Below are positions 35,627 to 45,764 of a stretch of DNA of 64,000 nt, in pieces. The stretch covers positions 248,001-312,000 of the forward strand of contig NZ_JABVWW010000002.1 in assembly GCF_013350005.1 (NCBI RefSeq), given 5' to 3'. Made by a program: the position numbers and the translations under genes. Position 1 is the stretch's first letter. Every line of letters begins with the position of its first letter. A model generated the notes under the pieces. That model was not told the origin of the DNA and did not search any database. It saw only the letters and a program-made list of their open reading frames with translations. This stretch comes from Methylocystis silviterrae (GTDB taxonomy: Bacteria > Pseudomonadota > Alphaproteobacteria > Rhizobiales > Beijerinckiaceae).

Positions 35627-35713
35627 GACGTCGTCCTTTCCAACAAGCGGACGACAAACATGCTGCGGCAGGCGGCGTTTTAGGCGCGCTCCTCCCGCAG
35701 GACGCGCGTCCTT

Positions 35714-35770
35714 GCGGCAGGAGCCATCAGCCTCATCAGGCGGTTATCGGGAGCCCCATCCCGGGAGCCA
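35714..35770 (-). promoter_or_regulatory. Fluoride riboswitch (crcB motif)
   Basis: On the minus strand the leader reads GGCTCCCGGGATGGGGCTCC, then ATAACCGCC and GGCTGATGGCTCCTGCC. These are the conserved aptamer blocks of the crcB motif (GAUGG, UAACCGC and CUGAUGGCUCCU). A strong hairpin (about 35698-35720) overlaps the 3' end and could be the expression platform. It lies about 90 bases before crcB, so fluoride should turn crcB on. Confidence 0.88.
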
Positions 35771-35855
35771 GCTTAGTCGAGCCGGCGCAAACGATCAACC
35801 GGCCGCCGCCGCCGTCAGGGCTTCGAACTCTGGTTAATTTCAGCTCACTCTCAGC

Positions 35856-43380: not shown

Positions 43381-43561
43381 GGGATGAGAATTCCGTGTGA
43401 ACGGTGTGTTCGGATGGGCGTGGATAGGCGATGCGGCAGGAGGGGTCAAGTAATTTTTGCGCGGCAAAGTCTCTACAACGCCAAGAAAACTGGGCGCTGG
43501 GGTTTGTTGGTATTATGATACCTTACACTCCGCCCCGATCTGGAGTGAGATTGCGACGCGA

Positions 43562-43583
43562 TTTGGCCGGGACAAGCCCGGCC
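43562..43583. repeat. Short palindrome, related to the 35856 repeats
   Basis: GGCCGGG and CCCGGCC flank ACAAG, followed by ATGAC. It looks like a single half-unit of the pair at 35856-35993. It is the only structure I see in the 237-base gap between rplM and amtB. Confidence 0.6.
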
Positions 43584-43617
43584 ATGACGCATAGGAGACC
43601 TGCGTTCCAGCGGCTCG

Positions 43618-45098
43618 CTACTGATGCAGCGCTTCGCCATGCAGCGCGATGTCGAGACCCTCGCGTTCATCGTCGTAATTCACGCGAAGCGGCGTGATCA
43701 TCGAGACAATTTTCAGCGTCGCCAAGGTGCCGATCACGCCCCAGACGATCGTGACGAGGACGCCGATCGCCTGCACGTAAAGCTGATGCGGATCGCCTTC
43801 CAACAGACCCGCGACGCCCGGATCGCCTTCCGAAGCCGTGATCGCGCGGGTGGCGAAGACTCCGGCGAGCAGCGTGCCCATAATGCCGCCGACGCCATGC
43901 ACGCCGAAGACGTCGAGCGTGTCGTCGTAGCGGAATTTATATTTCGCGACGGTGCAGAACCAATAGCAGACGCCGCCGGCGATGATCCCGATGACGACGC
44001 CGTGCCAAGGCAGGACATAGCCCGAGGCCGGCGTGATCGTGCCCAGACCGGCGACGGCTCCCGAGATGACGCCGAGCACCGACGGCTTGCCGCGCTGGAG
44101 CCACTCCAGGCCGCTCCACACCAGCGCGCCGGCGCAGGCGGCAAGATGCGTCGCCACAATGGCGAAGACCGCGCGGGAATTGGCGGCGAGCGCCGAGCCG
44201 CCATTGAAGCCGAACCAGCCGACCCAGAGCAGTCCGGTCCCGACGACGGCGAGCGAGAGATCGAAGGGCGAGAGGTTTTCGCGCCCGAACCCGACGCGGT
44301 TTCCGAGAACGAGCGCGCAGACGAGGCCGGCGATCCCGGCATTGATGTGCACGACCGTCCCGCCGGCGAAATCGAGGAGGCCCAGCTTCTGCAGAAATCC
44401 GCCGCCCCAGACCCAATGCGCGGAAGGCACATAGACGATGAACAGCCACAGCGCGCAAAACAGCATGAAGGCGGAGAACTTCATGCGTTCGGCGACGGAG
44501 CCGGCGACCAGCGCGCAGGTGATCACCGCGAAGGTCATCTGATAGAGCATGAACAGGATTTCGGGGATCGTCTTGGCGAATGGGCTCACCGTGTCGAGGC
44601 CGATCCCTGCAAGCAGCGACCGCGACGCGTCGCCGATATAGGCGCCCTCGCCGCTGAAGGCGAGGCTGTAGGCGACGCCGATCCACAGTAGCGAGACGAG
44701 CGCGGTGGCGATGAGGCTCTGCGCCATGGTGGCGAGCACATTCTTCTTGCGCACCATGCCGCTGTAAAAGAGCGCGAGCCCCGGCAGCGTCATCATCAGC
44801 ACCAGCGCGGTGGCGGCGATCATGAAGGCGGTGTCGGCGGCGTCGATCTTGCTCCCGCCGTCCTGCGCGAGGGCGGGTTGCGAGACCAGGAAAGCCGCCA
44901 GCGCGGCCGCCGCTGCTGAAATCGAGCGGCGCAATGTGTCGCCCTCATGCTGAGGAGCGCCTGAAAGGCGCGTCTCGACGCGCGAGGGCGAGAGATGCTG
45001 CAGGAGCGGATTTCCCCGTCCTTCGAGACGCCCGCGTTGCGGGCTCCTCAGGATGAGGAAATCCTTACTCAAGCTGCGCGCAAACGAGCTCTGCATCG
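43618..45098 (-). CDS. amtB: Ammonium transporter Amt, copy 1 (N-terminus altered by a repeat)
   Basis: About 493 residues from the ATG at 45098. Eleven to twelve helices of the Amt/Rh fold, with FAGGTVVHINAGIAGL and FGVHGVGGIMGTL carrying the two pore His residues. A signal peptide ends QPALAQDG. The ATG has AGGA seven bases upstream and lies 30 bases after the glnK stop. Between this start and the signal peptide, about 38 residues are encoded by a palindromic repeat (44943-45059), in frame. A TTG at 44934 with GAGGG upstream would avoid it. Partner of the adjacent PII protein. Confidence 0.9.
44943..45059. repeat. REP-like palindromic element inside the amtB leader
   Basis: Begins CCTCATGCTGAGGAGCGCC and ends GCGGGCTCCTCAGGATGAGG, with inverted ends and an internal CGTCCTTCGAGACGC segment. 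I recall this unit from many alphaproteobacterial genomes as an intergenic element. Here it keeps the amtB frame open. Confidence 0.85.
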
Positions 45099-45127
45099 TG
45101 GATCCTGATTGATGATTGGGAAGGCGC

Positions 45128-45466
45128 TTAGAGCGCGTCGGTGTCGGTTTCGCCGGTGCGGATGCGCATGGCGCGGTCCAGCGGCGAGACGAAAATTTTG
45201 CCGTCGCCGATATGGCCGGTGTAGGCGGCGAGTCTGATCGCCTCGATGGCGCGATCGACGAGCGCTTCAGGGAGCGCGATGTCGATTTTAACCTTGGGCA
45301 GGAATGCGACGATATATTCGGCCCCGCGATAGATTTCGGCATGGCCCTTCTGTCGGCCATAGCCTTTCACTTCGGTCGCGGTCATTCCGTGCACGCCGAT
45401 TTCCGTCAGCGCCTCGCGCACCTCGTCGAGCTTGAAAGGTTTAATAATCGCCGTGATGATCTTCAT
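45128..45466 (-). CDS. glnK: PII nitrogen regulatory protein GlnK/GlnB, copy 1
   Basis: 112 residues, family start [16 protein letters not shown]. Tyr51 of the T loop ([15 protein letters not shown]) is the uridylylation site. Binds ATP/ADP and 2-oxoglutarate and closes the Amt channel when nitrogen is plentiful. In-frame ATG at 45478 would add four residues. First gene of a glnK-amtB operon with a sigma-54 promoter upstream. Confidence 0.95.
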
Positions 45467-45510
45467 TTGCGCAGACATGCCCTCATGGTTGGCGAATTGA
45501 ACATTGTCTC

Positions 45511-45526
45511 AGCAATTGGCATGCCA
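45511..45526 (-). promoter_or_regulatory. Sigma-54 (-24/-12) promoter of glnK-amtB copy 1
   Basis: Minus strand reads TGGCATGCCAATTGCT, matching TGGCAC-N5-TTGCW at all but one base. It lies 45-60 bases before the glnK start, so the leader is short. I saw no clear NtrC dyad upstream. Confidence 0.8.
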
Positions 45527-45764
45527 TTATGCGCAGAAAATAATCGTTTTCTATCTTGGCGTCGAGTTTAAGCCTGGCCAGTCGTGAGGCGCCAGGCGGC
45601 TAAGTTTTATACACTATGCGTACATTGTTGGCTGACATGGGCGCGGCTCGCCACCCTTCACCCGCCACGCCGCTTGAGATGAGCGATCTTTCCCTTTTGT
45701 GTGATGCGGGCGCCCGGTAGAGATAGAAGCCGATCGTCGGGAGCGCATAAAGCGGCGGAAGCGG

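Follow-up and report, generated by a model that had tools for sequence, protein, structure and literature searches.

The glnK–amtB locus and its palindromic insert

A palindromic repeat lies between the ATG and the signal peptide of the first amtB gene of Methylocystis silviterrae (genome G000), and the question that it raises is whether it is read as part of an unusually long leader or has supplied the gene with a replacement start. An earlier note on this DNA had framed these as alternatives. In the window (the whole 64,000-nt stretch that was analysed), glnK and then amtB follow one another on the minus strand (Table 1). The 117-nt repeat reported there proved real, being a REP dimer whose inverted arms (44943–44987 and 45014–45058) are 71% complementary and which folds as RNA into two hairpins of about 50 nt each (−62.8 kcal/mol, z = −4.2, with 0 of 200 shuffles as stable), the stem of hairpin 1 being bulged (8+4+4+6 bp) and its loop 3 nt long. 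The reading frame is open throughout from the ATG across the repeat to the end of amtB, the 117 nt amounting to 39 codons ahead of the signal peptide where about 38 residues had been described, and both the GAGGG and the TTG that follows it are present. The AGGA upstream of the ATG was likewise found, but the A of this ATG is at 45096, 31 nt past the glnK stop, rather than at 45098. As for the second amtB of the window (ATG 59639), put forward as an internal control, it indeed has no insert and a plain leader of about 30 residues, but it makes a weak control because it is a distant paralogue, 47–51% identical to the first in matched pieces; orthologues serve better.

Table 1. Features of the glnK–amtB region, with positions in the window.
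Feature	Position	Strand	Basis or remark
glnK (PII protein; gene upstream of amtB)	45128..45478	-	ORF; tree with 29 orthologue rows
AGGA Shine-Dalgarno of the ATG	45103..45106	-	CAGGA or CAGGG in 17/17 full loci listed, own included
ATG, probable true amtB start	45094..45096	-	ATG-to-core distance a multiple of 3 in 18/18
REP dimer, two inverted REP units	44943..45059	-	within codons 13–52; probably translated in frame
Hairpin 1 of REP dimer	45010..45062	-	RNA fold; pairs kept in G036
Hairpin 2 of REP dimer	44940..44990	-	RNA fold; pairs kept in G036; GAGGG in its 3' strand
In-frame TTG, candidate replacement start (unsupported as main start)	44932..44934	-	GAGGG at 44942–44946
Signal peptide hydrophobic region, ends ALA|Q	44866..44925	-	motif assigned by inspection
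amtB from this probable ATG, 492 codons plus stop	43618..45096	-	ORF; Pfam PF00909 at residues 90–488

Two further elements were seen in the window. A different short palindromic stretch, GTCATGGCCGGGCTTGTCCCGGCC, lies just 3' of amtB (about 43555–43590, minus strand) and looks by eye like the second of the repeat-like peptides described below for the MmeI-like gene; and a fluoride riboswitch (RF01734, 47.1 bits; 35711–35772, minus strand) is the sole Rfam match in the window at the gathering threshold. An Rfam search of 44800–45600 at E ≤ 1 returned no match.

The leader keeps its phase after the ATG in orthologues

We compared the leaders of 34 full amtB orthologues of the genus, our own included, and a partial one from G029 (one MAG, L010, lay outside this set and was not counted). 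Within the genus, full orthologues of the first amtB are 79–98% identical. Seventeen of them, together with G029, have a common start ATG with CAGGA or CAGGG upstream, followed by M-x-S-S-F-A-R in 16 of the 18 (the exceptions being MHNSFAR in G036 and MHSSLMR in G021). The distance from this ATG to residue 63 is 186 nt in G000 and G036, 138 in G029, 90 in G001, 87 in G017, G026, G032, G011 and G035, 75 in eight species and 66 in G004. All six lengths are multiples of three (18 of 18 loci, comprising the 17 full ones and partial G029), whereas the spacer from the glnK stop to the ATG, 29–33 nt in the 17 full loci, occurs in all three phases. That phase is kept after the ATG and not before it makes this ATG the likely start, from which the REP would be translated, since a dead ATG would not be expected to have its downstream phase so protected. 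As a rough figure, for events that are not fully independent, five length changes from one form would all fall in phase by chance with a probability of about (1/3)^5 = 0.004.

Other in-frame starts occur in some leaders (TTG at −42 in G004, ATG at −27 in G018 and at −51 in G035), but ATG 45096 is the only start codon common to all 18. Among the remaining 17 species, 16 have an ATG at most 33 nt from the aligned core residue, that is, an ordinary short leader, the exception being G010, whose best-placed ATG is at −72. In predicted folds, the AGGA of the ATG in G000 is partly paired (unpaired probabilities of 0.96, 0.24, 0.11 and 0.24), and the mean unpaired probability over −14 to −5 in four contexts is 0.52–0.64 for the ATG versus 0.11–0.12 for the TTG. 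Translation probably proceeds from ATG 45096 through the REP. Of the two alternatives raised at the outset, the comparison supports the long leader, whose frame holds in all 18 loci, and does not support a replacement start, the TTG being missing in 10 of 18, a CTG in one more, and its Shine-Dalgarno paired.

Leader forms in relatives and their history

Comparison of the leaders fixes the site of the insertion and yields a graded set of forms. The full insert is found at the same site in G036 (L101), 91% identical to that of G000 over 136 nt; the best-scoring other REP copy in G000 is 82% identical over a similar length. Shortened forms, all in phase, occur in seven species: G029 lacks 48 nt from the middle of the REP, G004 has only its 5' edge left, and G017, G026, G032, G011 and G001 retain letters of the outer stem, these reading CCTCATCC joined to AGCATG in G017 and being more diverged in the other four. 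Nine relatives, G035 among them, have a REP-free leader with the same ATG. Separately, in the fragmented assembly of G029, amtB lies near a contig end (L124, C114:13016–14001) and, immediately behind its signal peptide, is missing most residues as far as about 206, perhaps through misassembly.

In the amtB tree the species with the outer-stem form are monophyletic (96/95); in the glnK tree they are not, and in the rplM–rpsI tree they group weakly (77/74, three rows). On the amtB tree, REP-free G035 is sister to REP-carrying G036 (100/99), and REP-carrying G000 nests with REP-free G013 and G023 (100/96). Because leaders with and without the REP alternate in this manner, recombination of leader segments or their repeated replacement must, on these trees, have been involved, and the losses need not all be independent. 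In principle, the outer-stem form could be the state that preceded the insertion. Across loci L089–L105, we also observed that REP-derived and REP-free leaders alternate on both the glnK and the amtB trees, which suggests recombination of a short leader segment.

The REP as a probable passenger of the AmtB signal peptide

When G000 is compared with G036, the REP codons show eight nonsynonymous and two synonymous differences (dN/dS 1.6), against a dN/dS of 0.083 for mature AmtB; purifying selection on the REP peptide was not seen in this comparison, and the peptide is not conserved. Downstream of the REP segment, ALA-Q or AIA-Q, a motif assigned by inspection, is found in 17 of 17 full leaders. 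Unconserved and lying ahead of a kept cleavage motif, the REP-coded peptide is probably discarded. In an AlphaFold model (24 rows), residues 1–53 and 65–81 have pLDDT <50, residues 51–70 form a helix, and most of the transporter is well folded.

The simplest mechanism, and in our view a likely one, is that the REP is a translated passenger in the disposable signal peptide of AmtB, shortened in frame in sister species. A two-unit REP would have entered the n-region of the signal peptide in the ancestry of a Methylocystis clade, a site presumably tolerant of added residues since cleavage takes the signal peptide away. Ribosomes would start at the conserved ATG 45096 and translate the REP as part of a leader of about 77 residues, and the predicted disordered REP-coded segment would be lost together with the signal peptide, so that mature AmtB stays as it was. 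Shortening at different breakpoints would have followed in sister species, with in-frame forms alone being seen. The comparisons show where the element went in, the phase of the leader, its shortened forms and the lack of constraint on the peptide; we infer translation, cleavage and an origin of the short forms by deletion, the mutational mechanism probably being slippage between short repeat sequences within the arms of the hairpins.

Copies of the REP in the genome and the genus

The element is a short palindrome with many dispersed copies, as REP-like elements generically are. In G000 it has at least 50 matches at E ≤ 1e-3 (40 of 86 candidates were scored, and some sites matched on both strands). 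At genus level 32 of 39 genomes have a match, as do 20 of a sample of 121 genomes from the order, with G000 counted in. We classified the 29 best-scoring places of the 50 matches in G000 with a home-made codon score plus reading of translations (L181, the other strand of L180, was excluded, and lower-scoring matches without loci stayed unclassified). The element is mostly extragenic, with 26 of these 29 places intergenic or just upstream of a start, and lies in frame inside genes at three, namely amtB, dgt and an MmeI-like gene, the codon score being one that detects intact frames only and would miss genes broken by a REP. At five of the 29 places the overlap with a called gene exceeded one base, and at L174 it was a single base. 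L172 and L173, scored as partly in genes, were set aside when their translations placed the REP upstream of the real start, as were nine further loci from G000 and other genomes that turned out to be upstream, downstream, antisense or non-coding. The matched spans of 34 REP-dimer copies (of 37, selected by length and with the MmeI-like copy among them) fall into phase classes of 14, 11 and 9, that is, they show no phase.

In-frame REPs in dgt and an MmeI-like gene

In dgt, which encodes an HD-domain dGTPase (L177/L182, G000 C62:36894–38297), a REP dimer follows the HD domain in frame. Across the genus, 18 of 30 loci (L182–L211) have dgt linkers with a REP or a REP scar, all multiples of three in length: 195–204 nt for full forms, 105–147 for partial ones, 201 for a tandem form in G020 and 30–39 for scars, which read PHPEEP or similar and whose letters are consistent with a deletion joining the TGAGG repeats in the two outer stems. 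The other 12 loci have no insert or a few unrelated residues; at 10 of them the linker is given as 0 since the anchors overlap, which denotes absence of the insert and not a measured length.

In the gene for an MmeI-like DNA methyltransferase (L165/L212, G000 C22:76117–78876), the REP lies in frame just past the methyltransferase domain; it is full in G000, G029 and G001 and contracted in G022, with all frames open (L212–L215). The gene also encodes a second repeat-like peptide in frame, HARACRGHPRKAAAQDGVDGRDKPGHDG.

The hairpins are kept, and may do something

All 42 pairs of the G000 fold in amtB survive in G036 despite 12 differences in the 126 bases compared, an outcome seen in 0.14% of random draws that matched the number of transitions (20,000 draws). 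The first draws for amtB, dgt and the MmeI-like gene ignored transition bias, and amtB alone was redone with it, so that the fractions for the other two genes are those of the simpler draws. Between the same two genomes, the REP differs less than the leader on either side of it (10 of 117 positions versus 26 of 117; Fisher p = 0.006). In dgt, hairpin pairs beat the random draws in six of six comparisons among four species, which are not independent (fractions 0.000–0.042), with 65–70 of 76 or 69 of 77 pairs kept and 6 to 11 lost per comparison; overall, the dgt linker did not change more slowly than its flanks (G000 versus G023, 18 of 195 against 23 of 480). For the MmeI-like gene, the draws were beaten in two of six comparisons (0.000 each), one with too few changes gave 0.10, and the three with the contracted G022 copy gave 0.57–0.66. 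Four of the 12 comparisons in these two genes are thus not beyond chance at 0.05 (the three with G022, and G000 with G029, which differ by 2 substitutions).

Some force keeps the REP hairpins, which are better conserved than the peptide, and this is something that a purely passive insert would not predict. Selection at the RNA level, selection on the element itself and repair-driven copying are possible causes. Selection on the hairpin peculiar to amtB is not supported, dgt and in part the MmeI-like gene behaving alike.

Tuning of amtB by the hairpins is possible, and in its fuller form, which we regard as rather unlikely, the insert would have a dual role, with the ATG as the main start, the TTG as at most a weak second one, and hairpins that slow ribosomes and so lower AmtB relative to GlnK. 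The complete retention of pairs amid substitutions and the slower change of REP positions speak for such a role, but pairs are likewise kept in dgt and in part of the MmeI-like comparisons, nine relatives without a REP show that it is dispensable, and the Shine-Dalgarno of the TTG is paired. We think it quite unlikely that, more broadly, Methylocystis REP dimers are tolerated, removable in-frame coding cassettes in which the hairpins are selected and the peptide is free, the amtB copy being a speed bump that sets AmtB against GlnK, with recurrent in-frame contraction, and exchange among species, tuning the ratio.

The TTG as a proposed replacement start

Placing the REP in the 5' untranslated region, with the old ATG dead and amtB starting at TTG 44934 behind a Shine-Dalgarno from the REP edge, has some attractions: GAGGG stands 7 nt before the TTG, its anti-Shine-Dalgarno duplex in G000 is stronger than that at the ATG (−6.1 versus −4.1 kcal/mol), a start there would yield a normal-looking, textbook signal peptide, and the TTG is present in seven of nine REP-derived leaders (G000, G036, G017, G026, G011, G001 and G029). 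The frame from a dead ATG, however, could drift, yet is kept in 18 of 18. The TTG position holds no start codon in G004, G035 and eight other REP-free leaders, and CTG in G032; in G004 the sole candidate close to the core, a GTG at −3, would give a signal peptide with no charged n-region, although the TTG at −42 also exists. In G000, moreover, the GAGGG is paired in hairpin 2, with an unpaired probability of 0.00. We rejected TTG 44934 as the main start for its absence in these ten leaders, the CTG in another and the Shine-Dalgarno within a hairpin, and a wholly untranslated REP is very unlikely, but the stronger duplex may leave room for a minor second start there.

Barely credible is the idea that a GC-rich repeat simply dropped between the genes and is open by luck with its frame unselected, for although 74 of 204 frames are open in the 34 REP-dimer copies, making one open copy unremarkable, six different leader lengths are all in phase and so is every one of the 18 dgt linkers that hold a REP or its scar.

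Relation to known palindromic elements

In REP/BIME elements, inverted REP pairs are associated with a RAYT transposase. The Methylocystis element is like them in consisting of inverted REP pairs scattered in the genome, and unlike them in that G000 has no match to Y1_Tnp (PF01797), on which ground we rejected RAYT as the mobilising enzyme; across the genus, nine of 39 genomes have a PF01797 match at E ≤ 1e-3, eight of them above the cut-off. Palindromic elements of Rickettsia (RPEs) were reportedly described by Ogata in 2000 and 2002. Excerpts of two papers (PMC10969869; PMC3733652) place RPEs in frame in protein-coding genes, and by that description the REP resembles them in being a palindromic element inserted in frame, with the gene staying intact, in amtB, dgt and the MmeI-like gene; it differs in its methanotroph host, its place in a signal peptide and its graded in-frame series in orthologues.

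According to the main text of Di Nocera et al. (2013; PMC3733652), GTAG/CGTC REPs are short palindromes, mostly intergenic, with a minority inside genes in several species; inverted dimers predominate in the CGTC families, which have no dedicated transposase; and many of the genes carrying REPs serve DNA synthesis or repair, a class that dgt would fit. The Methylocystis elements share with the intragenic REPs of that account the short palindromes, the inverted dimer and the minority position in genes, and G000, without a PF01797 match, likewise shows no associated tyrosine transposase. The same text gives CGTC REPs an unpaired CGTC tag, a stem of 8–9 bp, a loop of 4–5 nt and a CCA tail; judged by eye against it, the Methylocystis element does not match in stem and loop, hairpin 1 having instead the longer bulged stem and shorter loop given above. 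That text also holds that many N-terminal REPs may be extragenic, as translation may start downstream, whereas for the amtB REP the orthologues argue for translation. Its main text, apart from the supplementary gene list, has no word starting with 'methyl'. The Br-REP1 and Br-REP2 consensus sequences, as given in an excerpt of PMC5082802, differ by eye from the Methylocystis REP. Literature searches with REP core words found no related paper by title, and a search for in-frame palindromes found none. Intragenic REPs and RPEs are already known, and the amtB REP is another case, with an unusually clear series of forms.

Implications

The present case adds a phase test, a series of graded forms in related species, and like behaviour in three genes. 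The comparative test can be used elsewhere, an N-terminal repeat being coding if phase is kept after the true start and not before it. For annotation, the result argues against shifting the amtB start into the repeat, and the three genes in one genome extend the published list of REP-carrying genes. It also suggests that a palindromic element can be accommodated in the n-region of a signal peptide, and that inserts of this kind become shorter in steps that preserve the frame.
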